From: a virus
Direction: 5' to 3' (one strand)
Length of the DNA: 22,039 nucleotides
IMG/VR virus record: IMGVR_UViG_3300050821_001195
Span: 1 to 22,039 of that record
A program made the translations under genes and the position numbers. Below are positions 591 through 21,939 of this stretch, in pieces (position 1 is the stretch's first letter; the number at the start of each line of letters is the position of its first letter). The notes beneath the pieces were generated by a model that ran no database searches, was not told the origin of the DNA, and was given only the letters and a program-made list of their open reading frames with translations.

Positions 591-1810
591 TAGTAACCTG
601 CTAATCCAGAATAAACATTAGCACCAGTTCCAACCAAATTACCAATCTGTGAGGCTGAACCAAGCGCCTGATTAAGATTGCTAGGAACCTGCGATTGGCC
701 TAATTGACCGCTAATTAAGAGCTGTGCGATTTGGTTAGCTAATGAGTTACCAGTTAGCTGTTGGCCACTAGTTCCTAGCAACTGCTGGCCTAACATTGAA
801 CTCATACCAGGTGTAGCACCATACGCGCTTGTCATTCCACCTAATGCACCGAGCTGTGCACCAGTTAGCCCAGATAATCCTGCAAGTTGCCCCTGCTGCT
901 GCATTTGTGCAATAGCAGCATTAGTAGCAACATCAGAAGCAGAGATACCTTGTGTAGCTTGACGACCCAAATTAGCTTGAGCAGCAGCAAGGTTAGGCGC
1001 ATAACCACCTGTTAATGCTGAATTAGTTTGTAGGTCATTTTGCATATTTTGATATGCAGCGCGTGTTGGTGCTTCTCCCTGCTGCTGCATACTTTGAATC
1101 TGCGCAGGAGTGAATCCCCCAGTCTGCGCCATATTTGTCCAGCCACCAATAGCTGAACTATTTCCACCACTACCACCAGATGGGGCTGAAGCTGTGCCCC
1201 CGCCAATAGCAGCAGCATTACCACCATTCTGCACAATTCCATTCTGCAAACGAGTTAGAAAATATGATGGGTCAGAACTACCCCACTGATTCCACGCGTT
1301 CATCCAATACGCGCCATTATCAGTATTAGGCACGCCACCCGCGCTAATATACTGATTCACAAGTTGATTAACTTGTGTTGGGCTCATACTAGATGAAAAC
1401 TGGCCTAATCCCGATGCAGTGCTACCAGTATTAGTGGATGGCGATGCTTGGCCGCCTGATGGATTACCACCACCAAGAAATGAATTATATCCCCCCAGGA
1501 TACCACTCAAATCTTGATTATTTCCAGCTAAGCCATTATAATAACTATTTGCCCCTGATAGGTACTGGTTTGCCAGATTTTGCGTAGTGGTATTTAGCCC
1601 ACTATACGCATTACCGACACCAGTGCTAATAGCCCCTTGCACCGCAGATTGGCCGTTATTTGTAAAGCCAGATGTTCCAGTTGCAGGGTTATAACTGTAT
1701 GCACCACCTAACCCGGGGTTAGTTGGGGTAAAAGTTGTTGCAGATAATGGCGCATATGTATTTTGCATCGAGCCATTATTCTGCTGATTTTGTGTTCCGC
1801 CTAAAGCCAT
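590..1810 (-). CDS. Gly/Gln/Asn-rich virion protein with a WGSSDP module
   Basis: The ATG has GGAG seven bases upstream. The 406 residues are dominated by Gly, Gln, Asn, Ala and Ser. Residues 142-192 carry the module with LVNQYI, DNGAYW and WGSSDPSYF shared with 20579-21016. Residues 235-310 are helical, with YQNMQNDLQTNSALTGGYAP and LAAAQANLGRQATQGISASD, a pattern I know from a recurrent phage virion family of unknown function. The C-terminus is a Gln/Leu-rich helix region ending in GLAGY. There is no signal or membrane segment. It probably belongs to the internal or ejection proteins of the particle. Its stop is coupled by TAATG to the next gene. Confidence 0.75.
   Translation of the reverse strand: MALGGTQNQQNNGSMQNTYAPLSATTFTPTNPGLGGAYSYNPATGTSGFTNNGQSAVQGAISTGVGNAYSGLNTTTQNLANQYLSGANSYYNGLAGNNQDLSGILGGYNSFLGGGNPSGGQASPSTNTGSTASGLGQFSSSMSPTQVNQLVNQYISAGGVPNTDNGAYWMNAWNQWGSSDPSYFLTRLQNGIVQNGGNAAAIGGGTASAPSGGSGGNSSAIGGWTNMAQTGGFTPAQIQSMQQQGEAPTRAAYQNMQNDLQTNSALTGGYAPNLAAAQANLGRQATQGISASDVATNAAIAQMQQQGQLAGLSGLTGAQLGALGGMTSAYGATPGMSSMLGQQLLGTSGQQLTGNSLANQIAQLLISGQLGQSQVPSNLNQALGSASQIGNLVGTGANVYSGLAGY
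1235..1387 (-). repeat. Copy 2 of the shared 51-residue WGSSDP module
   Basis: This codes for residues 142-192 of the Gly/Gln-rich virion protein. It matches the copy at 20615-20767 at LVNQYI, the Gly-Val pair, DNG.YW, W..WGSSDP.YF and final GI. Confidence 0.75.
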
Positions 1811-1812
1811 TG

Positions 1813-2190
1813 CTAAACTCCGATTGAAAGAATCTTACCCTTGCAGGGTTCAAATCCGGCTTTTTCGAGATATTTTAACCAATTATATTCATGAACAAAT
1901 GCGTGGAGTCGAGAAAAGCCGTATCTTTTAGCTGTGTAAAGATTATCATCAAACATCTCTTTTAATCCTTTCATTCGCTCCCCTAATTGGGTATCTTTAT
2001 CAGTTAAGATAATTGTCTCTGCTATGGGTAGGATGCCCCCACCAGTAATAATCTTACCTTCTCGATTTGTAACAACAATAGGGTCAATAAATCGGGGTAG
2101 AAAATTAGGAAAATCAAACTCTTGAGCATAAAATTTTTCATGTATACGTTGTAGCTCAGGAATATCTGATTCTCGTAATTTGCGTGTCAT
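1813..2190 (-). CDS. GNAT-like (acetyltransferase fold) phage protein
   Basis: The protein starts MTRKLRESDIPELQRIHEKF, the typical first strand and helix of GNAT proteins. VVTNREGKIITGGGI (39-53) would be the beta-hairpin, and RLHAFVHEYNWLKYLEKAGF (94-113) the C-terminal strand plus helix. At 125 residues it is shorter than usual, and the acetyl-CoA loop (Q/R-x-x-G-x-G/A) is not evident, so it may have lost catalysis. Related short proteins occur in phage tail regions, from general knowledge. It lies in the same ATGA-coupled string as the endolysin. A target protein or peptidoglycan substrate is not identifiable. Confidence 0.7.
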   Translation of the reverse strand: MTRKLRESDIPELQRIHEKFYAQEFDFPNFLPRFIDPIVVTNREGKIITGGGILPIAETIILTDKDTQLGERMKGLKEMFDDNLYTAKRYGFSRLHAFVHEYNWLKYLEKAGFEPCKGKILSIGV

Positions 2191-2618: not shown

Positions 2619-2989
2619 CGGATACCTATCTCACCTTCTGCACTCAGTGTGAGTGTTGTTCCGGCTGATGCGCCACCAACTAGGAAATCAGCTATATCCA
2701 ATGTTAGTCTACCAGTCCATTCAACATAAGAATTAGCAGCAACAGTTAGCGCAGTCCCCATGAATTCAGTGCCAGCAGCATTAGCTCCAGTAGCACCAAC
2801 CCATAGAGAAAAGGTAGCAGATGAACTAGTCTTATTTACAATTCGAATATGATAGATAGTATAGTATGTATTGACAGTTGTGCCTGGAACACCAACACCA
2901 CCTGTAAGAGTGGGTGGATTAAGAATATTAGTTGTGAGCGTTGCACTTAGCGCAACTGGACCAAAGCGAACATACTTATTAGCTGCCAT
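2615..2989 (-). CDS. Small beta-sandwich tail protein (124 aa)
   Basis: The protein starts MAANKYVRFGPVALSATLTT and ends LTLSAEGEIGIR. The core (IYHIRIVNKTSSSATFSLWV, then GATGANAAGTEF, then DIADFLVGGASAGTTLTL) matches in style a recurrent family of small phage structural proteins that I know only as uncharacterised. It is all beta, with no signal or cysteine. The start is coupled by TAATG to the collagen-like gene and its stop overlaps the endolysin start as ATGA. A role as baseplate or fibre attachment protein is plausible but unproven. Confidence 0.75.
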   Translation of the reverse strand: MAANKYVRFGPVALSATLTTNILNPPTLTGGVGVPGTTVNTYYTIYHIRIVNKTSSSATFSLWVGATGANAAGTEFMGTALTVAANSYVEWTGRLTLDIADFLVGGASAGTTLTLSAEGEIGIR

Positions 2990-3831
2990 TAGACAAGCTC
3001 CAGATATGCGCCAAACATCCGCCAGCTAGTAGTAGCATTATTCACTGAATGCTGAACGGAAACTTTGAATGTTTGTGTTGAAGTAGAATCCACAGTTCCT
3101 AAACCATATAACACGTTTTGACCCAAACCATTCGCATCCCAATTTCCTACGCCATGAGTCTGCGCAGTTCGATCGCCATACATTGATTCTATCACAACGA
3201 AGTTAGCATTTGTAGCACCATAATTACCAAGCACCATATCAAGAAACCAGGGAGTTAAAACTGCATTACTCGCCCAGGTTCCAGTGCTCTGATATAATAC
3301 TGAACTACCATAGTATACGCGTATAGTTATAACATTACTAGTTCCACTGGTATTTTGCTGGTCTCCAACCATTCTTAGGTGGAGATGATTTGTTGTTCCT
3401 AATGTGCCACCTGTAACAGAATAAGTATAGATAATTGTTTCTGTGGTAGTAGCAACTACATTTGTCATCCCCTGGTGATCAATTAAACTACCACCGCTAC
3501 CAGGTGCTCCTGTTGCTCCTGTTGCTCCCTGTGGCCCGATTGGACCAGGAATTTGGGGGAAATAATCATCATTATTATCATTAGGAAAGATTATACCAGC
3601 AGGACCAGCAGGACCAGGAGTTCCACCGCCTCCACCACCACTAGAAGTTATTGGATTTTTATTAAGATATGCAACAATGTTAGATGCTACACCATGAATA
3701 GCTTGACTCGAATTGAGTAGCCCCTTAATCGTTTGATACAGCGGATTGTTCGTAGATGCCACCTTACTAGCATTGAGTTGTGCTAATAAGGAAGGAATAT
3801 CCGGAACAGATGTATCAATATTAACTGCCAT
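2989..3831 (-). CDS. Collagen-like tail protein (280 aa)
   Basis: Three parts are visible. Residues 1-62 are helical with DIPSLLAQLNA and IHGVASNIVAYL, possibly a trimerising or attachment domain. Residues 65-113 hold a glycine run, a short G-X-Y stretch (GTPGPAGPAG, 70-79), an acidic loop and a second G-X-Y stretch (GPIGPQGATGATGAPG, 96-111). Residues 114-280 form a beta-rich head with HLHLRMVGDQQN and WRMFGAYLELV, like receptor-binding tips of fibres. Collagen-like stalks of this kind are known from phage fibres and trimerise. The ATG lies 11 bases inside the upstream gene; no strong binding site is seen. Confidence 0.8.
   Translation of the reverse strand: MAVNIDTSVPDIPSLLAQLNASKVASTNNPLYQTIKGLLNSSQAIHGVASNIVAYLNKNPITSSGGGGGGTPGPAGPAGIIFPNDNNDDYFPQIPGPIGPQGATGATGAPGSGGSLIDHQGMTNVVATTTETIIYTYSVTGGTLGTTNHLHLRMVGDQQNTSGTSNVITIRVYYGSSVLYQSTGTWASNAVLTPWFLDMVLGNYGATNANFVVIESMYGDRTAQTHGVGNWDANGLGQNVLYGLGTVDSTSTQTFKVSVQHSVNNATTSWRMFGAYLELV
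3499..3624 (-). repeat. Collagen-like G-X-Y stretches
   Basis: Codons for residues 70-111 of the tail protein: two G-X-Y tracts of about 3 and 5 triplets, interrupted by the acidic IFPNDNNDDYFPQI. Pro occupies X in several triplets, and Ala, Gln or Thr the Y position. Confidence 0.7.
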
Positions 3832-4123: not shown

Positions 4124-6978
4124 AAGATAAAGTATGGGTTGGGAATTGGAACTATTTCCACTGACGTAACTGGTTGTGAAGAACCTGTCCCATACTGAAT
4201 ACTATAGTAAATTGTATCATTTGTTTTACCAAGATTGATATAATATATACCGCCATTTCCAATTAGTGGAGGGGGTGGTGGTCCATTAATTAAGAAAAAT
4301 ACCTGATTATCGCTTGGGCCAAAAAATGCCGCTGGCGTTAATGTTTCAGGTGGCGCGTAAGAAGCATCCTGAAATTGTGGAACTGTTGGTGTCTGAAATA
4401 AAGTTAGTCCAGTGCTAACTTGAATGTTTAAGAAACTAGTTGTATTAGCCCCAGTTGTGGGCGTATACGCCATGACCCAGAATGAGTTGGGATCATCGAG
4501 CGCGTGTTGTATTCCCTGAACAAGATATGTTCCACCAAGTGTAATAGTATTAAGAACTGTTCCAGTTGGTGAATACTGTATTACGATAGCATTTGTATTT
4601 CTTATAAATAAAGCAAGAATTGTATCATCTTCTAGAACAAGAAGTATACTATTACTAACCCCAGCTTCAGAACCTGAAATATAGAATGACGGAGGATTAG
4701 GGAAGCTACTTAAAGCTACATTATTAATTAAATCCCATCTCCGCACCATGTAATCATTTGGCGGAGGACCAGAACCACCTGGGCTAGGCTGACCAGAAAT
4801 ATAATAAAGAATTGTATTATCGCGTGATGGCGCTATAGCCCATATACCACTATAATAAACAGTTGGTTGCCAAACTTGTGTTCCCTGTTGTCCAGTAACA
4901 GCAGAAACTGTAGTTACATATTTTCCATCATTTGAAGGAGATGTGTCCCCAGTAATATAGAAAGTTTCATCTCGGTCACTGCTAATTGCACTTGCGTAAG
5001 TAAGCTCAAATGGTGAACCAAATGAAACGTTTGGAATGGTTTGGGTGTAGCTTGTTCCATATCCTTGTAAAGCCAGTGATGGGAAAGTATTTATTATTAA
5101 AACAGTGCCATTTGGCAGGCTCTCTGCTGCATAGCCACCAGTAGCATAATTATTAACTAAATCAATAACCTGTCCTGAGACAGTAGATAAGATACAGAGT
5201 GGTAAAGAATTGTTTACATCAGGAACAGCTAACGAACCAACAGGAACAGTTGATGGAACAAATAAGCTACCTGTTATAGTAAGATTAGCTGGTGATGGAT
5301 TTCCAGAATTAGTTGCGATATGGAAATAGTAAACTGTTCCCTGAACTGTATAAAGTTCAATTGGAGCATTTGGCTGGTAACCAACAATATGGGGTGTATA
5401 GACAGTTAAATCACCATATGCCCAAATACTAACATATCCAGTTGTTAAGGCAGTATACTTATACCAGACAGCATAAGTTGTGCCACCCGAATCAACTCTT
5501 TGAGTGAGAGTATTTGAAAGTGGTCCTAGTTCAATAGCATTAGCTTGTAGAATATTTGGGGGTAAACTACCGGTCGAACCAACTCCAGCTAAGCTGCCAC
5601 TACCAGCTAATGTTCCAACACTTGGAACTAATAATGCAGCGACACCAGCTAATGCTCCACCACCACCTAAAGCACCTGTAGGACCAGCTAATGCGCGCCC
5701 TATGCCGGCTAATGCACCACCCCCAACAATTGTTCCAGCAGTAGGAACTAAAGCCTTTCCTACACCAGCTAATGAACCAATTCCAGTGATTACACCATGA
5801 TTAGCTACTGGGCTAACACCGAGTAGTGAGCCAGCACCAGTGATTGTGGCTACTGAGCCAAGATATTGATATGCACCAATAGTATATGGGACAGTGCGTG
5901 GATTTCCTGCAAAATCGATTGTTACAGCAGGAATGGTTAAACCAGCACCAATACAAAGACTAGTAGCTTGAAGTTGAAAATTTCCTGCGCCTGCATTTAC
6001 AAAGAGTGGATTACTAGTATAATTATTACGAATAGTTGCGCTACCACCGTAATCATTTATTGCTGAATTATTATTATAAACAATATTATTTTCAATGGTT
6101 GGTGCTGTGGCATAGTATTGACAATCAATGCCACCGCTACCAGTAGATGGGTTATTGTTATAGATTGTATTGTTATAGACTAACGCAGCTTTCGAATTTG
6201 AGTAAATTGATATACCACCGTAATTATCATAAATAATGTTGTTGTAGTAGAGGTTGTCCTCACCACCGTCATCGACTATTCCGTAAGATGTAGTAGTTGA
6301 CCGACCATTATTATAGATTAAGTTACCATAAGTTATACAATTATTTACATCATAAAGTCCATCATCTTCATTATTGTGAATTCCATAACCAAGATTATTA
6401 TAGATTGTGCAGTTATTAATTGTTACATCACTAGCACCAGTATTATAGATGCCATGACCATTCGTAGCAAGGCTACCAGAGCCATTACCATGAATTGCGC
6501 ATCCATAGATAGTGATGTTATTGGCAGACCCATTGTTATTAGAAAGGGAGATACCAAAATTTGGGAAGTAACGAATTGAGCAAACATTTATATTAATGTA
6601 TGAAGCTGTGCCAGAGATGTAGATACCCTGGTAATTAATATTTGATTGAAGGGAACCATCAAGGATAAGTCCCTGAATGGTGATATTCGTTTGCGTGCCA
6701 GAACTGAGATTGATGCAGTTCGTAGCATCTGGTGGTTGGATGATTACAGATTCAGAATTATAGTTAAGAATCGTGAAGTTGCCTGGAACGGTGTAAACAG
6801 TAGAATCAATTCTATTGGCTGCCCCACTATAAGTTCCTGCACGCAGGTATAGTGTATCTCCTGAAGCAAGCTGCGCCACACCATAAGATATGGTTAGCCA
6901 GGGAGAACTAATTGTGCCGGGATTAGAATTACTAGGACTACCGCCAACCCCAGCCGTATCTACGAAGTAGATTGCCAT
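4120..6978 (-). CDS. Tail spike with beta-helix, repeat linker and beta-propeller-like end
   Basis: This is the largest gene in the window (952 residues). Residues 1-370 form a right-handed parallel beta-helix of the pectate-lyase/DUF1565 kind, with repeated rungs such as NNCTIYNN, LYYNNIIYDN and LVYNNTIYNN and the opening SSPWLTISYGVAQLASGDTL. Such domains in spikes bind or cleave host surface polysaccharide. Residues 376-475 hold five 20-residue repeats (separate entry). Residues about 476-575 look like a pre-peptidase C-terminal-type beta domain (TYAVWYKYTA), and 576-952 are repeated beta units suggestive of a propeller. Enzyme residues cannot be assigned. The ATGA at its stop couples the next gene. 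No ribosome binding site is visible at the start. Confidence 0.85.
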   Translation of the reverse strand: MAIYFVDTAGVGGSPSNSNPGTISSPWLTISYGVAQLASGDTLYLRAGTYSGAANRIDSTVYTVPGNFTILNYNSESVIIQPPDATNCINLSSGTQTNITIQGLILDGSLQSNINYQGIYISGTASYININVCSIRYFPNFGISLSNNNGSANNITIYGCAIHGNGSGSLATNGHGIYNTGASDVTINNCTIYNNLGYGIHNNEDDGLYDVNNCITYGNLIYNNGRSTTTSYGIVDDGGEDNLYYNNIIYDNYGGISIYSNSKAALVYNNTIYNNNPSTGSGGIDCQYYATAPTIENNIVYNNNSAINDYGGSATIRNNYTSNPLFVNAGAGNFQLQATSLCIGAGLTIPAVTIDFAGNPRTVPYTIGAYQYLGSVATITGAGSLLGVSPVANHGVITGIGSLAGVGKALVPTAGTIVGGGALAGIGRALAGPTGALGGGGALAGVAALLVPSVGTLAGSGSLAGVGSTGSLPPNILQANAIELGPLSNTLTQRVDSGGTTYAVWYKYTALTTGYVSIWAYGDLTVYTPHIVGYQPNAPIELYTVQGTVYYFHIATNSGNPSPANLTITGSLFVPSTVPVGSLAVPDVNNSLPLCILSTVSGQVIDLVNNYATGGYAAESLPNGTVLIINTFPSLALQGYGTSYTQTIPNVSFGSPFELTYASAISSDRDETFYITGDTSPSNDGKYVTTVSAVTGQQGTQVWQPTVYYSGIWAIAPSRDNTILYYISGQPSPGGSGPPPNDYMVRRWDLINNVALSSFPNPPSFYISGSEAGVSNSILLVLEDDTILALFIRNTNAIVIQYSPTGTVLNTITLGGTYLVQGIQHALDDPNSFWVMAYTPTTGANTTSFLNIQVSTGLTLFQTPTVPQFQDASYAPPETLTPAAFFGPSDNQVFFLINGPPPPPLIGNGGIYYINLGKTNDTIYYSIQYGTGSSQPVTSVEIVPIPNPYFIL
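5554..5853 (-). repeat. Five 20-residue Gly/Ala repeats in the spike
   Basis: Residues 376-475 of the spike repeat the unit (T)I.G.GSLAGVGkALvP.aG five times: ATITGAGSLLG, VITGIGSLAGVG, TIVGGGALAGIG, ALGGGGALAGVA, TLAGSGSLAGVG. Each is about 60 bases. The unit separates beta-helix from C-terminal beta domains and could act as a flexible or glycine-rich fibrous linker. Confidence 0.75.
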
Positions 6979-7561: not shown

Positions 7562-9024
7562 CAGCTCGCTCCAATGAGAAATTGATTGTAGTTAATCATT
7601 GCAATAGTATTGGGAGTAACATCGAATGTCCAATGAGCCCATCGAATAGATTTGAAATCTAACCCATTCGAGTAGTCACCCATTAAGATAGTTCCATCAG
7701 GCATTGAAACATATATAATTTGGTCAATGGCATCATTCATAATTTGCATATTTATAAAGCCACTACGTGCTTGGCTCATCCAATAATCTTTAACTTTCCA
7801 CGTTAGCTCAGGCCGAATATATGCGCCATTGAAAAGAATAACACCTGAAAAATCAATGATGATGAGATAGAGAAGATTGACAGCTTCACTATCTAATACT
7901 GCTGCAACCCCATGAACCGATGCGCCAACACCACTATCAACAATTGTTAAAGGCCAAGTAGATGGCACATCGCCGCTATCAGAATAGGCAAATGTGCGCG
8001 TAGACTTGAACATATAAAGTGTATCTTGAAATACTTGACCATTAGTTAGTGGCCGTGCATCTAATGGAACAATTAATAAGCCAGTTACTTGGTCCACCGC
8101 TTCCGGCTGACCCACATAGCTAACTCGTGCAAGGCTGATATTAGCATACTCAGAAAAGCTAACCAAACGATTATGATAGGTAGTAAAACCAACGCCAGCA
8201 GGAATGTTAGTAAAAAGATTGAGAAGATACGAAGCATCTTCTAATAGCTCGGCGTCATAGAACGACAGTGTGATGCTAGTCGTTGTATTGTCTGCTATTC
8301 TGCCTTCCGGAATAAAGAAAAATTCATATTGATCTTGAATATCGCCTGAAAAGAGAGTAGGTTGAATAGCTATTGTGCTTACAAGTCTACGTGCTACAAC
8401 GTAGCTTGGGCCAACTGGAATAGCAGAAATTGTAACTTCATCGCTACCTGGGTCATTGATATTTGCAAATCCCGCCAGAGCAGTGATAAATCCTGTATCA
8501 GTTTCAAAGGCGACCGCGTAAACACGCACTCCAGCCGGATTATTTCCTGAGCCGGTATTAGCTAATGTTAATGTGCCAGTAGGTGGAGCACCCCCAGCTA
8601 ATCTTGCAGGTGTTCCATCTCCTTTATAAATCCATACCGACTGATTTTGCATTCCTGTGGTGCCATTGCATGGATTAATAAAAGCGCGTCCATCAATAGC
8701 AACGAAACCAAAATCAGTCATTCCTACGATAGTTAATATGGGAGTATAAGGAGTAGGAGACTTATCGTGGAAAATATTGCCATTGCTATCAAGAATAAGA
8801 AGAGATTCGTAGGAATTAGGAACATTAAGATATACATAGTTATAAATCCGCAGAACATTACCATACGGCTCATAAGTATCTAATCCATCTCTTGTGCGTA
8901 TTCCTGATTGAATAAAAGCTACATTATTGTTATCTGGTGAATGGTCTGGTGGGCATGCTTCTGCATCGCCCCTAATATAGAGACCATTAAATTCTTCAAT
9001 TACTATTGGGTCGTGATCGCGCAT
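7561..9024 (-). CDS. Tail nozzle/stopper protein (beta-propeller-like)
   Basis: The 487 residues are beta-rich with repeated strand-turn units: FGFVAIDGRAFI, YHNRLVSFSEY, LYMFKSTRTFAY and IYVSMPDGTILMGDYSNGLD. The ordered recurrence of such blade-like units over about residues 40-470 suggests a propeller or barrel. The start (MRDHDPIVIEEFNGLYIR) and the place after the adaptor match the tail nozzle or stopper proteins of short-tailed phages (P22 gp10 or T7 gp12 type), which close the portal channel. The N-terminal NNVAFIQSGIRTRDGL is typical of these proteins in my recollection. The stop overlaps the next start as TGATG. Confidence 0.75.
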   Translation of the reverse strand: MRDHDPIVIEEFNGLYIRGDAEACPPDHSPDNNNVAFIQSGIRTRDGLDTYEPYGNVLRIYNYVYLNVPNSYESLLILDSNGNIFHDKSPTPYTPILTIVGMTDFGFVAIDGRAFINPCNGTTGMQNQSVWIYKGDGTPARLAGGAPPTGTLTLANTGSGNNPAGVRVYAVAFETDTGFITALAGFANINDPGSDEVTISAIPVGPSYVVARRLVSTIAIQPTLFSGDIQDQYEFFFIPEGRIADNTTTSITLSFYDAELLEDASYLLNLFTNIPAGVGFTTYHNRLVSFSEYANISLARVSYVGQPEAVDQVTGLLIVPLDARPLTNGQVFQDTLYMFKSTRTFAYSDSGDVPSTWPLTIVDSGVGASVHGVAAVLDSEAVNLLYLIIIDFSGVILFNGAYIRPELTWKVKDYWMSQARSGFINMQIMNDAIDQIIYVSMPDGTILMGDYSNGLDFKSIRWAHWTFDVTPNTIAMINYNQFLIGAS

Positions 9025-9299: not shown

Positions 9300-9623
9300 T
9301 TAACTAGTCGCTGAAGGATACCACTTGGAAGTGCCAGAATCATAGATAAGAGTAAAAACCTTATATCGGGTCAGCGTAACACCCAGGGCGATATTACCAG
9401 ATGTGCCAAGCGACGCCACTGACGAATCAGTCTCGTAAATATAAAGTGGCCCAACAAAGTTAGGCACGGGAAGATTAATGGTCTGAATCGCTGTAGTTCC
9501 AGTAATACGAACCACATCACCAGTCGGTGAAATAGTTGTAGTTGAAGCGACAGCAGTATTGCTTGCATTAACATAATCTACTTCACCGAATGTTTGAGTT
9601 CCTAAAGTCTGCCCAATATTCAT
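9300..9623 (-). CDS. Small beta protein, paralogue of 11581-11916
   Basis: Two in-frame ATGs exist (9629 and 9623). The second is chosen because GGAG (9630-9633) is six bases upstream of it and it overlaps the connector stop as ATGA; the first would touch the binding site. The product has 107 residues, MNIGQTLGTQTF onward. Residues 24-63 (AVASTT, GTTAI, LPVPNFVG) match residues 26-66 of the protein at 11581-11916, and both end in D-(S)-G...WY. It probably is a beta-rich virion protein, here next to connector genes. Two diverged copies in one head operon suggest two attachment sites or a specialised second copy. Confidence 0.72.
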   Translation of the reverse strand: MNIGQTLGTQTFGEVDYVNASNTAVASTTTISPTGDVVRITGTTAIQTINLPVPNFVGPLYIYETDSSVASLGTSGNIALGVTLTRYKVFTLIYDSGTSKWYPSATS

Positions 9624-10339
9624 ACCCATCTCCTGCGACCAACTATAACAAATGGTCGCCTACGTGTTCTCGCACCTTGCTTAGATTTTAATCCAATACG
9701 AATTACCCAATCAAGATTTAATGTAGCTTCTTTATCTAATTCATCAGCCCTGGTTGGATTTTCACCAAGATACCGCGCAGCCATTGCAGCCGTGCGATTA
9801 ATCATAAATTGTTGTGAATTATTAACAGCTATTACGCTACCAACTCCAGTTATATTAATTAACTTTTTAAGATAGTATACTTTGATATCTCGTGCTGTGG
9901 TGCAGCCAACAAAGAAGATATCTTCTTCACGATATGACCAGTATCTTAGGCTATCTGTAGGTTGAACATCTGGTTCCCACGCACGCCGAATCATGGGGAT
10001 AAACTGGTCTGTAGTGCCAGTTAGACGTTCTTCTAATCTTTGCGGTTCTAACATATCATCAGGAATAAGTGAATCGAATGGTGCTCCAGCAGCAGAGCCG
10101 TCCCCACCATTTCCCAATGATACAAGATTTTCTTGATTTGCATTTAATGAGATTGGGAATGGAATGATAGTGCTAATTTCTTCTAGCACTAAAGCTCCAT
10201 TCAATTCTAGCATAGACTGTAGCTCATCTCCCGCATCTTGCGCATATGGAATTAGCGCAAGATTGGTGTAGATGTTTTGGTCGGAGTCATTTAACCTCGC
10301 TACGATGCGAGGTATAATGTCTAACAGAGTGTAGCTCAT
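9620..10339 (-). CDS. Head-to-tail connector/adaptor protein
   Basis: The 239-residue protein begins MSYTLLDIIPRIVARLNDSD and has a helical N-terminal region, a middle with IRRAWEPDV and YWSYREEDIFFVGCTT, and a helical plus strongly basic C-terminus (TRRRPFVIVGRRRWV). Its size, layout and place after capsid and before the nozzle protein fit the adaptor ring under the portal of short-tailed phages (gp4- or gp11-type connectors). An Asn-rich loop precedes the segment AAMAARYLGENPTRADEL, which resembles the helical bundle of such adaptors. No single residue proves the role. It overlaps the next gene by four bases if that gene starts at 9623. Confidence 0.75.
   Translation of the reverse strand: MSYTLLDIIPRIVARLNDSDQNIYTNLALIPYAQDAGDELQSMLELNGALVLEEISTIIPFPISLNANQENLVSLGNGGDGSAAGAPFDSLIPDDMLEPQRLEERLTGTTDQFIPMIRRAWEPDVQPTDSLRYWSYREEDIFFVGCTTARDIKVYYLKKLINITGVGSVIAVNNSQQFMINRTAAMAARYLGENPTRADELDKEATLNLDWVIRIGLKSKQGARTRRRPFVIVGRRRWV
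9630..9633 (-). promoter_or_regulatory. Ribosome binding site deciding the start at 9623
   Basis: GGAG on the minus strand, six bases before the ATG at 9623 and directly touching the ATG at 9629. Spacing selects the downstream start. Confidence 0.55.
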
Positions 10340-11580: not shown

Positions 11581-11916
11581 TTACTTCAAATACCAGAGAT
11601 TTCCATCAGTAAATACCATTACAGGAACATTAGTTGTGGCAGTAAATGCAGCAGCGATAGGCAATGCTGAAGTGGTAGCAGCAGGACCACCAGTTGCAGC
11701 AGCCATCGCTCCTGTTGGAATATAAACAAAATATCCTGTAAAGTTGGGGTATGGTAGCGCAATGCTTGTAATAGATGTAGTTCCGCTAACGAATGTAATA
11801 AGTGCCGTGGGAGCGGGCATTGCAGTGGTAGATGCTACCGTAGTAGGATTTACCTTGCCACCCTGCACGCCCCCAGGGCTGATAAACGGAAAGATATTTT
11901 CAACAATAGCTCCCAT
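11581..11916 (-). CDS. Small capsid-proximal beta protein, paralogue of 9300-9623
   Basis: The ATG at 11916 comes two bases after the capsid stop (TAATTATG) and gives 111 residues beginning MGAIVENIFPFISPGGVQGG. A GTG at 11961 would add 15 residues overlapping the capsid gene and has no good binding site, so it is rejected. Residues 26-66 (TVASTT, then SGTTSI, then LPYPNFTG) align clearly with residues 24-63 of the gene at 9300-9623, and both end in a DG/DSG plus WY motif. The composition (Ala, Thr, Gly, few charges) suggests a beta-rich virion protein such as a head decoration or fibre. The function is inference from position. Confidence 0.7.
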   Translation of the reverse strand: MGAIVENIFPFISPGGVQGGKVNPTTVASTTAMPAPTALITFVSGTTSITSIALPYPNFTGYFVYIPTGAMAAATGGPAATTSALPIAAAFTATTNVPVMVFTDGNLWYLK

Positions 11917-11918
11917 AA

Positions 11919-13175
11919 TTAGTAACCACTTGGAATGGTCAGCGTGCTGATATAAACGCACGCAGCCGGGTTTCTAACGAATTCTTGAAATGCGATGGTA
12001 ATATAGAAAATCTGCGAGGTAGCAACGCCACCCGAAGCGCCACGTAACTCGAAAATCTTCCTACCATCTACGTCATAAAATTTACAGGGATGCATCTCTG
12101 CACGTCCCCATGTTTCTTCATAAATAAAATCAATACGTGTCTTATCCCAGGAGAATGACTCCTCAATCGGAGCACCCGCCATTTGCATATTATCGCCAAA
12201 ATACATATCTAAAGCTTCATCCTTTGGCTGCTTATGAATAATGCTGACAAGCTGTCCAACAGCTTCATAAGCCTGCTTCTGACAAGGATGCATCCATGCT
12301 TTAACTTTCTTAACCGTATCCATTCCAACGCGGTCGCCAACCTTATTACGGGCCAAGCGAGCAAATGGAAGTGTAAAGCTGCCACCAGCAGCAACATTGT
12401 TAGCGCGAATTTCAGGCGTGGTCGCACGATTGAATCCGAGCCATGTGCCAGTAGAAGCATTATTGTGATGATACTTAACCCCAAAAATAGAAGAGGGATT
12501 AGGTCCATTCAAACCAGCAACAACAACCAAATCACCAGCTACAATATTAGCAACAGTCTGGTTAATTTGAACTGTCTTATTCGCGAGGTCATAGAAAATA
12601 ATAGTAGGGAGTGTGCCAGTTGTGCGCTGAGTTCCCAGTGTAGAACTATAAATATTGATACGCATTCCATAACGCAGCAAACGAGCATTGAACCCGTCTG
12701 TGTTAAGAAGAATGGTATCATTGGTCAGGGTAGTAGTAGTGAGAGATGTAACAGTGCCCATCGTGCCTGTTCCATCAGTCATTGATAGAGAATCAAGATT
12801 ACGGCGGAACTCCTGCATTGATTTAGAAGTCAACTGACGAACTAAATCAATAATAGCTTTCCGCTTATCATCAGCAGCCCATTCTGCCTTCTTGGTCCAT
12901 TGAATAGCTTCCCGCAGAAATGCAGGCTGCAAAGTAGCTACTTGATAATTAGGACCATCACCAACGCCCAAATCACCGCCATCTGGGTCGAAATGTGCGA
13001 AATCTCCACCGGGATCTAATTCCAGTGGAATACGCATCGCACGATTAGAAACCTTAATTACAGGTCTCTTTTCGAGCTTAGCGAAGAATCTATCTTCGCG
13101 GTCGAACAGAGTGGGTAGCACTTCATCAACATGCTCCAACTCTGTTGCAACAACTTGTGCCTCATTTAACGCCAT
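11919..13175 (-). CDS. Major capsid protein (HK97-fold type)
   Basis: This 418-residue protein follows the scaffold and precedes small head-associated genes, as major capsid genes do. It starts MALNEAQVVATELEHVDEVL, has an N-terminal helical arm (residues 1-40), a long helix-rich segment around KKAEWAADDKRKAIIDLV, and a beta-rich second half with the dense strand/turn pattern of a HK97-like shell protein. From general knowledge of phage genomes its opening and its order resemble capsid proteins of short-tailed phages. An AGGGA lies eight bases before the ATG, inside the scaffold end. No cleavage site or protease gene is visible, so maturation by cleavage is not supported. Confidence 0.88.
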   Translation of the reverse strand: MALNEAQVVATELEHVDEVLPTLFDREDRFFAKLEKRPVIKVSNRAMRIPLELDPGGDFAHFDPDGGDLGVGDGPNYQVATLQPAFLREAIQWTKKAEWAADDKRKAIIDLVRQLTSKSMQEFRRNLDSLSMTDGTGTMGTVTSLTTTTLTNDTILLNTDGFNARLLRYGMRINIYSSTLGTQRTTGTLPTIIFYDLANKTVQINQTVANIVAGDLVVVAGLNGPNPSSIFGVKYHHNNASTGTWLGFNRATTPEIRANNVAAGGSFTLPFARLARNKVGDRVGMDTVKKVKAWMHPCQKQAYEAVGQLVSIIHKQPKDEALDMYFGDNMQMAGAPIEESFSWDKTRIDFIYEETWGRAEMHPCKFYDVDGRKIFELRGASGGVATSQIFYITIAFQEFVRNPAACVYISTLTIPSGY

Positions 13176-17732: not shown

Positions 17733-18111
17733 TTTCCATTACCTCAACTTCTGGTTTTTCGAGAGCTTGAATACGCGCTTCATAATCAGCTCTACGCTTA
17801 GCACTTAATAATGTAGCTTCTTGCGCATCTTTTCGTTCAGCATGACGAATACGCGCTCCCATAGAATTAATATTGCGAGGTATGCTATGCATTTCACCAG
17901 ATGATTCACGCGCTACGCGATTCATTCCAGTAATATGCTTAATGATATCATTCATATCATCGTGATGAATACGAACTTCATTTTCCCACTTTTCATCACG
18001 AGAATGCAGTTCTTGCTGGAGCAATGCTATTGTAACATCACGCGCTTCGCAAGCTGCGCATCTTTTTACGAAGAGTTCTCGAAAAGCTACCAGCACGCTT
18101 CGCAAATCCAC
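17719..18111 (-). CDS. Charged coiled-coil protein overlapping the terminase end
   Basis: The open frame reaches up to a TTG at 18132, but the best start is the GTG at 18111, six bases after a GGAG (18118-18121); that gives 130 residues. The first 74 bases lie inside terL in another frame. The protein is rich in Arg, Glu and Ala, with heptad-like helix over about residues 25-60 and again near the end (KRRADYEARIQALEK). A CAAC pair sits in the overlap-coded part. An ATG at 18038 that would couple exactly to the terminase stop is in a different frame and closes at once, so the overlap appears real. No family was recognised. It ends inside the start of the next gene. Confidence 0.65.
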   Translation of the reverse strand: MDLRSVLVAFRELFVKRCAACEARDVTIALLQQELHSRDEKWENEVRIHHDDMNDIIKHITGMNRVARESSGEMHSIPRNINSMGARIRHAERKDAQEATLLSAKRRADYEARIQALEKPEVEVMENGVQ

Positions 18112-19765
18112 GCTTAGCTCCAGTTCTTTCAATTAATTCCATCTTGCGATAGTAAGCTGTTTGATTTCCAGTTGTAGCAAGTTCAGCTACAACCTTTTGT
18201 TCACGCGCTCGATATTCAAATTCATTCGCAGATTCTTTAATGAATCTATCTACGCGCTTTAATAAATATCGTAGACAATCGTATGGGTCATCACCAACTT
18301 GCGAATCTGATACTTGCCATTCCTTAACATCTTCGACATTCTTATCATCATAAATGCATAGCGGGATGCATTCGATAAGTTGCTTACAGGTGTCGAAAAT
18401 CTGAAGGCGCGGTAAGTTTTGTTCGATAGCTGGTGGTTCGAATAATTCAATGTAGCGTTGCCACGCAGTTTCTGATAATCGCTTTAATCGTAACGATTCT
18501 TCATAATCAAACGTCTTGCCAGGGTCATGCTGAAATGTTGGTTTCGGCTTCCAACGTAGATATTCCTGAACCAACACTTTACCTGAGATTCTACCTTTCG
18601 TCGCTTGTTCTGCTTGTAGAACGCCACTAAAGGCTGCTGTAAAATGTTCTTGAAATTGCTGAGCAATAGTCTTAGGTTCACCACGTGACTCCCACGCGTT
18701 CGTATCTAAATCTAAGCAACGAATATTTTCTCCACGCGATAATTCCCCAATTTCCGTAGCCCACACCGCGACTTCTGTTTCCCGCACATAATATTCGCGG
18801 TAAATGAAAACTCTACCTTCTGGAGATATCGCTGCCCAATATGCCACAGTTGCAGCTTTAAAACCCCAGTCAATCGCCAGAATTCGCGGCCACCAATGTG
18901 GTATTTCCTGGGCTGGTATAACATGCAGTGCATTATCGGGCTCGTCCGGATAATGTCTGGCACGAAATGAATCAAATACTTGACCTGAGAATGTCCACCA
19001 ATCTCCGTAGAGCTTCGCTGCTTTTTCTGCTTCCGGCAGCATTTCGAGCTTAACAAGATAGTCTGGGTCATTTTTCAGGAGATATGGGTTATCAGTAGCT
19101 AATGCTTTAATAAATATTCGCTGGATAAACTTTCGATTGCCAGCCCCATCGAGTATGTAATTTCCGGCCTTATCAAAGAAGTATTGGCGAATAATCTTTC
19201 CTCCATCTTTGTAAGGTTCAACGAATCTTTTTCTAACCCATCCATGTCCAATATTTCCGGGATTTGATGCGGAGAATACGATAGATGGTAAATCTTCATC
19301 TGCGGGCCTGCACCTCGAAATCATGTAGATATATTGAAACTCTACAAATGAAGTTAACTCTTCAAAAAATTCATATGAGAATTGTTCTGTATCATACTTA
19401 CGAACATCATCTTCGTGTTCTGCGGCAGATAGATACATCTGCGCGCCCCACGGCCATGTCCATACGCGATCAGTTTTATTATAAGTAGCGCCAGTCTGGG
19501 GATAAAATCCTTGACAACGCTTAACTAATTCTTTCTTTAACTCAGGAATTGTGCGACGCATGATGATTCCCTTAAATAAGGGATGCTGATACATCATGCG
19601 GTCGCTATATCTGCACTTCTTCATTAGTGGTAGAACTACACCACAATCTGTCTTACCAGGTCCAGCAGCACCACCAAAGAATGTTTCCAAAACAGTATTA
19701 GGCACACTAATAGCCTGTTCCTGTTTAGGATGCGGTCGCCAATCTCTTTTGATGCTGTCAAACAT
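18038..19765 (-). CDS. terL: Terminase large subunit (packaging ATPase and nuclease)
   Basis: This is the motor protein that translocates phage DNA through the portal and cuts it. Of 575 residues, the N-terminal ATPase has a Walker A-like GGAAGPGKT (31-39), a Walker B region YEFFEEL (131-137) and a coupling motif SASNPG (165-170). The C-terminal RNase H-like nuclease shows IDWGF (D299), LDLDTN (D352, D354) and DDPYDCLR (D492, D493, D496). The length and motif order are complete for the family. The start is coupled by TAATG to the small upstream gene. The last 74 bases overlap the next gene, whose GTG start and ribosome binding site lie inside terL. Confidence 0.95.
   Translation of the reverse strand: MFDSIKRDWRPHPKQEQAISVPNTVLETFFGGAAGPGKTDCGVVLPLMKKCRYSDRMMYQHPLFKGIIMRRTIPELKKELVKRCQGFYPQTGATYNKTDRVWTWPWGAQMYLSAAEHEDDVRKYDTEQFSYEFFEELTSFVEFQYIYMISRCRPADEDLPSIVFSASNPGNIGHGWVRKRFVEPYKDGGKIIRQYFFDKAGNYILDGAGNRKFIQRIFIKALATDNPYLLKNDPDYLVKLEMLPEAEKAAKLYGDWWTFSGQVFDSFRARHYPDEPDNALHVIPAQEIPHWWPRILAIDWGFKAATVAYWAAISPEGRVFIYREYYVRETEVAVWATEIGELSRGENIRCLDLDTNAWESRGEPKTIAQQFQEHFTAAFSGVLQAEQATKGRISGKVLVQEYLRWKPKPTFQHDPGKTFDYEESLRLKRLSETAWQRYIELFEPPAIEQNLPRLQIFDTCKQLIECIPLCIYDDKNVEDVKEWQVSDSQVGDDPYDCLRYLLKRVDRFIKESANEFEYRAREQKVVAELATTGNQTAYYRKMELIERTGAKRGFAKRAGSFSRTLRKKMRSLRSA
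18118..18121 (-). promoter_or_regulatory. Ribosome binding site deciding the GTG start inside terL
   Basis: GGAG on the minus strand, six bases (CTAAGC) before the GTG at 18111. It lies within the terL coding sequence and is the reason for choosing this start over TTG 18132. Confidence 0.5.
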
Positions 19766-19973: not shown

Positions 19974-20579
19974 CTAAGATGTTCCGGCGACTGTTGCTTT
20001 TGCATCTATAATTTCGAAATGATTCTTATCTGCAATTGCATAACCACCATGTTCTGTGGTTTTCTTATTGTCTGCTAAAGTATGTTTATCGAAGTCAGGT
20101 GCCAAATTACCTTTCTTCATATACGCGTCACTTAATATAATATTTCGCCCATGCGTTACAAAAATTACCGTATCTTTAGATTTGCTTCTTAAATACTGTT
20201 CGAAGAATGGTAGATATTGTTTAGCCCAATCATTTACCGATTGCCCCCCTGGGATTTTTTCAGAGGGATTATTAAGATAATACTTAAACTCTTTAATATG
20301 TGAATCAATAGGCTTACCAACGAATTTGCCACTATCAAGGGGTTTAAGTGGTGGAGCGGCTTTCATTGGTAAGCCTAACTCAGTTGATAAAATTTTCGCT
20401 GTATCTCTACAACGACTTAAAGGAGAATAATAGATTATTTCTGCGTGATATTGTTTTAGTTCTTTTGCGAGCGCGTATGCTTCTTGCCTACCACTGGAAG
20501 TGAGCGGCTCATCCTTTAGGCCATGAAACTTGCCTTTAGTATTAGCCGCATCACCATGACGCCCGAGAACTATCCTCAT
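19974..20579 (-). CDS. Histidine phosphatase superfamily protein (phosphoglycerate mutase-like)
   Basis: The 201-residue protein opens with the family signature RHG (R7, H8, G9); H8 is the residue that would be phosphorylated. The second conserved Arg lies in SPLSRCRDTA (R56), an acidic residue sits in PLDSGKFVG (D82), and the second catalytic His lies in FVTHGRNI (H143). The full catalytic set therefore appears intact and the length is normal for a single-domain member. The family removes phosphate from small metabolites, sugar phosphates, nucleotides or proteins; the substrate cannot be read from sequence. It sits in a TAATG-coupled string of phage genes just upstream of terminase, which is an unusual setting for an enzyme. 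It ends eight bases before the next start. Confidence 0.88.
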   Translation of the reverse strand: MRIVLGRHGDAANTKGKFHGLKDEPLTSSGRQEAYALAKELKQYHAEIIYYSPLSRCRDTAKILSTELGLPMKAAPPLKPLDSGKFVGKPIDSHIKEFKYYLNNPSEKIPGGQSVNDWAKQYLPFFEQYLRSKSKDTVIFVTHGRNIILSDAYMKKGNLAPDFDKHTLADNKKTTEHGGYAIADKNHFEIIDAKATVAGTS

Positions 20580-21016
20580 TACCCAAAGTATCCATTATAA
20601 TTAGGCTGCCCCTTAATACCTGCAATTAACTTACCTTGGAAATAAGCTGGGTCGCTAGAACCCCACGCGTCCCAATCAGTAACCCAATATTGTCCATTAT
20701 CAATGTTAGCAACACCTGCAATAAGAATATACTGATTAACCAAAGCGCGAACTTGGTCATCAGTCATTCCACTAACGAATGATGCTAATGCGACAGGCGG
20801 TGTGGGGGTTGAAGGGGGCGCGGGGACTGCTGGCGAAACTGGAACCAACGTGATGGGAATAGTTGAATCTAATGATAGATTCTTATAGGGCTGATTTACA
20901 TATGGCGCGTAACCAGCGACGGTCACGCTGATATTTGCAGAATTAGGTAACTCAACAGTTACTTGAAATTCTGCAACTAAATTTCCATTGGGGTCTTTTG
21001 CAATGATTGAAATCAT
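20579..21016 (-). CDS. PEGA-like protein carrying a WGSSDP module
   Basis: The 145 residues fall into three parts. Residues 1-62 look like a PEGA or carboxypeptidase-regulatory-like beta domain (VTVAGYAPY, then STIPITLVPV). Residues 63-78 form a Pro-rich linker. Residues 84-134 carry a module with LVNQYI, DNGQYW and WGSSDPAYF, which recurs at residues 142-192 of the virion-type protein at 590-1810. There is no signal peptide. An AGGTG lies upstream of the ATG, which overlaps the upstream stop as ATGA. Sharing the module with a probable virion protein suggests that this is also a particle component or a partner of one; that is inference. Confidence 0.7.
   Translation of the reverse strand: MISIIAKDPNGNLVAEFQVTVELPNSANISVTVAGYAPYVNQPYKNLSLDSTIPITLVPVSPAVPAPPSTPTPPVALASFVSGMTDDQVRALVNQYILIAGVANIDNGQYWVTDWDAWGSSDPAYFQGKLIAGIKGQPNYNGYFG
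20615..20767 (-). repeat. Copy 1 of the shared 51-residue WGSSDP module
   Basis: This encodes residues 84-134 of the PEGA-like protein. Aligned with 1235-1387 it keeps QV..LVNQYI, GV.N.DNG.YW, W..WGSSDP.YF and a final GI. The DNA has diverged, so this is an old protein-level duplication or independently acquired module, not a recent DNA repeat. Confidence 0.75.
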
Positions 21017-21249: not shown

Positions 21250-21617
21250 TAGTGAACTCCAATTCCTGTTGGAACAGGTATTAACAAATCTACAAAGCTA
21301 TAGGGCGCGCTCGAAGCTGAAACAATACTACCACTCGCAGCAGTCATTGTAACTGTATGACTACCAAGTGGTAGCTGACTTACAGGAGTTGAGCATTGCT
21401 GAATTCCACTTGTGGAACTAGCAACACATGTAACTGGTGTAACGGTAATTGGTGCAGCACCGTCTACGGTAACTGCATAAGTAAAAGATTGTGCTGTTGG
21501 AATATCAGGTGCTGCGATATTCCATTGCAAAACTGAATTTGGTCCGATAATAATTGGCGCTGATTGCGCGCTTAGTGTGGTTATAGCTAATAGAATAATA
21601 GATAAGATTTTCTTCAT
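21249..21617 (-). CDS. Secreted Ig-like beta protein with signal peptide
   Basis: Residues 1-20 form a textbook signal peptide: MKK, a hydrophobic core (ILSIILLAITTL), then SAQSA as a likely signal-peptidase I site. The mature part of about 100 residues is Thr/Ser/Val-rich and reads like one Ig or fibronectin-type beta sandwich, with YAVTVDG and LPLGSHTVTM strands and turns. Two cysteines (C64 and C75) could form a disulfide after export. The gene is coupled by ATGA to the upstream gene and by TAATG to the downstream membrane protein. Export by a phage suggests an envelope role such as surface modification, exclusion or lysis support; that is inference and no specific function is claimed. Confidence 0.75.
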   Translation of the reverse strand: MKKILSIILLAITTLSAQSAPIIIGPNSVLQWNIAAPDIPTAQSFTYAVTVDGAAPITVTPVTCVASSTSGIQQCSTPVSQLPLGSHTVTMTAASGSIVSASSAPYSFVDLLIPVPTGIGVH

Positions 21618-21868
21618 GCAGCGGGTTTCGGTGGGGTCGCGACTGCATTGCTAGTAGCTGGCGGAACGACAACAGCATTGAGCGAAGCAACGATACTCTG
21701 AGCTTCTGCTGTTAGCGATGCGAGCTGGTCTGCTGTAACAGGACTACCAGCAGCTACCTGTGCTTCTAGCTGTGCGATTGTGGCTGCCTGCTGCTGTGAC
21801 TGTGCAACAACCTGAGTAACATCTGCCTGAATTGTATCAAGAGCTGCTTGCAAATCTGCTTCGGCCAT
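21614..21868 (-). CDS. Small coiled-coil phage protein (84 aa)
   Basis: The start is placed at the ATG at 21868 because a GGAGG (21873-21877) lies four bases upstream. An in-frame ATG at 21937 would add 23 residues but would have to cross the stem-loop and has no comparable binding site. The protein starts MAEADLQAALDTIQADVTQV and is an Ala/Gln-rich heptad-like helix over roughly residues 5-40, followed by a second helix and a Pro/Ala-rich tail (PPKPAA). There is no signal peptide or membrane segment. Such short acidic coiled coils are common in phage structural and lysis regions, but no function can be assigned. Its stop overlaps the next start as ATGA. Confidence 0.7.
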   Translation of the reverse strand: MAEADLQAALDTIQADVTQVVAQSQQQAATIAQLEAQVAAGSPVTADQLASLTAEAQSIVASLNAVVVPPATSNAVATPPKPAA

Positions 21869-21890
21869 TTTGCCTCCGTGAAAGATGCTT

Positions 21891-21915
21891 AGTATCTTCA
21901 GAATCTGAAAATACT
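21891..21915 (-). promoter_or_regulatory. Stem-loop in the leader of the small-gene cluster
   Basis: Read on the minus strand, an 11-base arm AGTATTTTCAG is followed by a 3-base loop ATT and the matching arm CTGAAGATACT. All eleven positions pair, one as a G-U wobble. It sits in the only real intercistronic gap of the window (21869-21939), just before the GGAGG ribosome binding site of the next gene. No U-run follows, so it is not a classical terminator. Possible roles are a processing or stability element or an attenuator; the role is inference. Confidence 0.5.
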
Positions 21916-21939
21916 GTCTGTTCGTGATGATTTTCATTT

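Follow-up and report, generated by a model that had tools for sequence, protein, structure and literature searches.

A small, probably helical domain shared by a probable virion protein and a small accessory protein of one phage

Background

Accessory domains can be added to phage virion proteins, with promiscuous Ig-like domains such as those of T4 Hoc (PMC10385173) as an example. Domain mosaicism of phage proteins has been described from sequence (PMC10684548, Nat Commun 2023), with stress on receptor-binding proteins, endolysins, and polymerases. In that work, proteins count as mosaic if the fragment they share is 50 aa or longer, at 30% identity or more, with an HHsuite probability of at least 95% and coverage of no more than 50% of both proteins. 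The ejection-protein operons of podoviruses (T7 gp14, gp15, and gp16) are reviewed in PMC8954989, and domain swapping among ejection proteins is described there.

Here, we analyze a virus record of 22,039 bases from IMG/VR (the window), in which every gene of interest lies on the minus strand. Two of its proteins, here called P1 (406 aa, 590-1810) and P2 (145 aa, 20579-21016), share a module. We describe the match, the predicted fold, the two carrier proteins, and the occurrence of the module elsewhere, and then weigh what it may do.

Results

Copy 1 of the module is found at 20615-20767 (minus strand, P2 residues 84-134) and copy 2 at 1235-1387 (minus strand, P1 residues 142-192), positions that the original prediction had placed correctly. 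Both copies were identified by translation and by similarity to each other. They align without gaps over 51 residues each, with 29/51 identical, and the motifs LVNQYI, DNG.YW, and WGSSDP.YF occur in both in the predicted order and with identical spacing. BLASTP with composition adjustment gives 55% identity over 58 aa between P1 and P2 (68.9 bits, E 5e-19). An hhalign comparison of a two-sequence profile (P2 and the L003 protein described below) with P1 as a single sequence gives a probability of 99.2% over 70 columns at 53% identity. The match covers 70/145 residues of P2 (48%) and 70/406 of P1 (17%); length, identity, probability, and coverage thus all lie within the published mosaicism thresholds. 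The Smith-Waterman score of whole P1 against P2 is 180, compared to a mean of 36.6 (sd 6.1, maximum 68) in 2000 shuffles, and this is the top-scoring pair among the gene products of the window (the runner-up pair scores 99). A match of low-complexity residues only, a doubt raised beforehand, was checked and ruled out: W, Y, F, D, N, and P are all among the identical residues, and the match does not extend into the Gly/Gln-rich part of P1. The sharing of the module between P1 and P2 is real.

At the DNA level, the two copies are identical at 87/153 positions. Because this is only 57%, the similarity is held at the protein level, as had been proposed. We estimate dN at ~0.49 and dS at ~2.1; the resulting dN/dS of ~0.23 is a rough sign of purifying selection, as dS is saturated.

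The module is probably a compact three-helix bundle, based on structure prediction. For a 69-residue stretch of P2 and an alignment of four sequences, AlphaFold2 returned a model with pLDDT 91.3 and pTM 0.78 and helices at residues 10-24, 33-43, and 47-59 of the query. This bears out, for the P2 copy, the compact fold that was anticipated, and the module is conserved in contigs that have almost no other relationship. In P2, the likely full domain is 69 aa in length (20582-20788, minus strand), as judged from the four-copy alignment and from a pLDDT of at least 70 at all 69 residues. It starts just before the invariant F80 and reaches the end of the protein. All four known copies keep a F followed by a M four residues on, L.N.YI, G..N.DNG.YW, and DP.Y, and three of the four have the tail GQPNYNGYFG. 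As only four sequences were found, the conservation and the fold model draw on a small sample. When full-length P2 is modeled, the module has pLDDT values of 77-87 vs 38-61 for most of the remainder.

We found no significant family match for the module in Pfam, PHROGs, or NCBIfam. A Foldseek search with the module model gave no significant match (best E 1.7 in BFVD and 3.0 in PDB); comparing the module profile with PDB sequences was equally negative (best E 0.13). Foldseek returned nothing usable for the model of full-length P2, which has low confidence (pLDDT 62). The null Foldseek result does not prove a new fold, because small helical bundles are difficult to match by structure. We make no claim of a remote link to phage modules of the YW...YW type, as none could be demonstrated.

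P2 consists of a beta-rich segment (residues 1-60, modeled at low confidence), a proline-rich linker (~61-76, very low model confidence), and the module (77-145). Its start, MISIIAKDPNG, has no evident signal peptide. The N-terminus had been labeled PEGA-like, a label we do not keep: a Pfam scan run to an E value of 1 yielded nothing but Big_1, at 0.14, below its cut-off. P2 is located upstream of the gene for the terminase large subunit (18038-19765, minus strand; Pfam Terminase_6N 4.3e-6, phrog_979 7.7e-37), as the original prediction stated, but the two are not adjacent. Between them are a histidine-phosphatase gene (19974-20579, minus strand; His_Phos_1 5.2e-28), for which there is no homologue in the relatives fetched, and a 66-aa ORF. 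The nearest relatives of the terminase are from uncultured viral contigs, and it is ~30% identical to the terminases of isolate podophages, among them HMO-2011 and the CRP roseophages.

P2 sits among small accessory genes, one of which encodes a probably membrane-anchored coiled-coil protein with weak matches to Rz-like spanins. Two small coiled-coil-like proteins near P2-type genes, at 21614-21937 of the window and at 6452-6712 of L003, have VT..QL..L.AEA..IVA in common (58% over 19 aa, E 0.002 for the pair), which hints at a common accessory-gene neighborhood. There was no match to viral contigs with whole P2 as the query; therefore, only the module is shared.

P1 (17% Gly and 11% Gln) has a virion-type composition and carries the module in its middle. 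It has no family match in Pfam or PHROG, and Peptidase_S74 is absent from P1 itself. The nearest relative of the window is G003, with a major capsid protein at 84% identity, a terminase at 69%, and broad synteny. The G003 orthologue of P1 (L030:5400-7193, 597 aa) has a Peptidase_S74 domain at its C-terminus (7.5e-11). Peptidase_S74 is the self-cleaving chaperone domain of tail fibers and spikes. The S74 end of the orthologue matches proteins of Serratia phage Parlo and Klebsiella phage LASTA, among others, which are annotated as “virion structural protein” or “tail fiber domain-containing protein”. In Parlo and LASTA, the S74 gene comes after an acyltransferase gene and leads, by way of one or more shorter genes, towards a giant DarB-like gene, and its product is the phrog_8003 “virion structural protein”. 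In G003, a small GNAT-like gene is followed by the genes for the P1 orthologue, a 377-aa protein, and a 1945-aa protein. The window stops after P1 and part of the next gene. Just upstream of P1 is a gene for a 125-aa protein (1813-2190, minus strand) that has an orthologue at the same place in G003 (L030:5000-5404, 37% identity); its product had no match in Pfam or PHROG searches and is GNAT-like by eye only.

From this comparison P1 is probably a virion protein, as first suggested, and may be internal or part of a fiber. Neither P1 nor L030:5400-7193 has a PHROG match to phrog_8003, the helical region of P1 and its orthologue matches the Parlo/LASTA protein with an hhalign probability of 0.4%, and there is no detectable similarity to that protein outside S74. 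Because the remaining sequence gives no detectable similarity, the assignment rests on the S74 end of the orthologue and on a gene order, seen in G003, like that of Parlo and LASTA.

A few other features of these genomes are of note. The 1945-aa protein of G003 (L030:8299-14136), whose gene is the second one after that of the P1 orthologue, has a HATPase_c_3 domain (Pfam 1.5e-7), and this region resembles RIIA lysis inhibitors (phrog_612, 5.8e-9), which is odd for a giant virion protein that is likely ejected. Collagen-like Gly-X-Y repeats are encoded at corresponding places in G003 (L030:1660-4620, 986 aa) and the window (2989-3831, 280 aa), with very different lengths. The window also encodes a second pair of small paralogous proteins (9300-9629 and 11581-11961, minus strand; 36% identity over 66 aa, E 4e-6), each with a homologue in G003.

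We scanned 2.9 million viral contigs and found two further contigs with the module, L003 (G001) and L004 (G002). Two more pattern scans of viral sequences recovered only these again, giving a total of four copies in three viral contigs. The L003 gene (5863-6201) encodes a 112-aa protein with the layout of P2, in which the module comes last, after a short beta-type start and a proline linker. The start of this gene (5853-5906, GGGTAGGCAACCATGACGGTGACC...GACAT) is repeated 2.5 kb downstream at 8324-8377, as a truncated ORF of ~17 codons. In L004, the module is in the middle of a 384-aa Ala/Gly/Gln-rich protein encoded downstream of tail or adaptor genes, a layout like that of P1. G001 and G002 have one copy each, and neither has both architectures. 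The 127-bp terminal direct repeat of G002 suggests a closed contig; G001 and the window are fragments, in which a second copy could be missing.

An occurrence in many virion proteins, put forward beforehand as support for a docking domain, is not what we see: there is no credible relative in the collections of phage isolates and bacterial genomes searched. Searches of isolated phages with the module gave only chance matches (E 0.5 or worse). Four of these isolate-phage regions were opened and contain three proteins and one translated stretch, all unrelated to the module. A related-locus search of 84,980 bacterial and archaeal species was empty. Five bacterial stretches found with a degenerate DNA pattern encode proteins that match only around the pattern residues, and we consider these to be chance. 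A search for P1-type proteins via their C-terminal regions returned only the contigs already known.

Comparison with G003 indicates how the module sits in P1. It is flanked by two anchors, SFLGGGNPSGG upstream (residues 110-120; 1451-1483, minus strand), which also occurs in the module-less orthologue, and GWTNMAQTGGFTP downstream (residues 223-235; 1106-1144, minus strand). The downstream anchor opens a C-terminal region that is 52% identical to the orthologue; the N-termini align weakly, with a score that beats 999/1000 shuffles. The consensus anchors of the two proteins are SFL.GG.PSGG and GW..MA.TGGFTP. Between them, the G003 orthologue has 262 unrelated aa, compared to 102 aa in P1. Because unrelated sequence occupies the place between the same flanking motifs, we view the module as a movable cassette. 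A free copy of the G003 slot sequence was not found in the records searched, so the pairing of a slot domain with a free copy does not hold as a general rule here. No homologue of P2 was found in G003 or G004.

The P2 module is 67% identical to that of G001 and 54% identical to that of P1, in the same genome. The window and G001 have no other protein in common except for a weakly similar beta-helix protein. The copies in the window do not stem from a recent duplication within the genome, because the P2 module is nearer to that of G001 even though the two contigs share almost nothing else. In a four-taxon tree, the copies group by architecture, not significantly. These sequence comparisons are most simply read as a sign that the module has spread horizontally.

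Discussion

We give about an even chance to the reading that the module is an independently folding helical domain of ~55-69 aa that is shuffled as a cassette and serves as a binding or adaptor domain. P1, an Ala/Gly/Gln-rich and probably virion-associated protein, carries it in a slot that varies while the anchor motifs on both sides are conserved. P2, a putative small soluble accessory protein, carries it as a C-terminal head on a beta-rich segment and a proline linker. Each carrier may use the module to reach the same kind of partner, which could be a virion component or a molecule of the host envelope during DNA entry, and the remainder of each carrier would do its specific job. Either copy would work without the other.

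A ligand on the host side, such as a glycan, peptidoglycan, or another envelope component, is an unlikely but serious alternative, with P1 acting in adsorption or DNA ejection and P2 in lysis or interference with superinfection. The conserved aromatics and Asp (Y, W, W, Y, F, D) are consistent with it, although many of the aromatics may be core residues of a three-helix bundle. The accessory-gene cluster around P2, with its coiled-coil protein that weakly matches Rz-like spanins, points the same way, but P2 starts without an evident signal peptide. A swap within an otherwise conserved virion protein is expected under host-directed selection, as in tail fibers (PMC10684548); known glycan-binding folds were nevertheless unmatched in Foldseek searches of PDB. 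Somewhat less probable is docking, in which the modules of P1 and P2 would bind one another or share a virion partner and P2 would thereby be built into the particle beside P1. The two genes occur in one genome with the sequence signature kept, and the predicted fold is compact. Against this, neither other contig has both forms (and G002 looks closed), the closest relative of the P2 module is in another phage and not in P1, and the P1 of the closest relative has no module. The proposed meeting of P1 and P2 in one particle is not established; we see it as possible but do not favor it, since both forms are not found together elsewhere and P1 can be module-less.

The module could also be a virion-targeting tag, with its carriers, including P2, recruited into the particle or the ejection apparatus. 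We regard this as improbable; if it is true, phages can exchange cargo through the transfer of a domain of ~60 residues. Least probable, and by our estimate very unlikely, is a passive, foldable spacer that is moved by recombination and has no specific partner. The confinement of the module to three contigs and the low-complexity linkers that flank it would fit a spacer, but the protein sequence is held (by the rough dN/dS) in spite of the DNA divergence, and DNG.YW and DP.Y are invariant in 4/4 copies. If the module instead serves in docking or ligand binding, it could reveal the role of otherwise anonymous small phage proteins and could offer a compact tag for phage particles.

The closest described systems resemble the locus in part. 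As in the T7-type ejection operons (PMC8954989), a mid-size protein or proteins and then a very large one come after the tail genes, a likeness of gene order only. The Ig-like domains of T4 Hoc and others are beta sandwiches, whereas this module is predicted to be all-helical. The phrog_8003 protein of Parlo and LASTA shares with the P1 orthologue the S74 C-terminus and a location in the operon that has a small GNAT-like gene on one side and the giant-protein end on the other. It differs in that nothing is similar outside S74, the P1 of the window has no S74, and the helical module was not seen in the Parlo or LASTA proteins. The nearest parallel in kind is the mosaicism of PMC10684548, where otherwise unrelated phage proteins have a fragment of 50 aa or more in common; here, none of the libraries searched has a family for the module, and both carriers are in one genome. 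Domain shuffling is a known and common behavior of phages, and the new part is this module without a family in those libraries. At present, it stands as one more well-supported case of phage domain shuffling. The case defines a small helical domain and shows its movement between two kinds of carrier, one a probable virion protein and the other a free accessory protein, in phages with almost nothing else in common.
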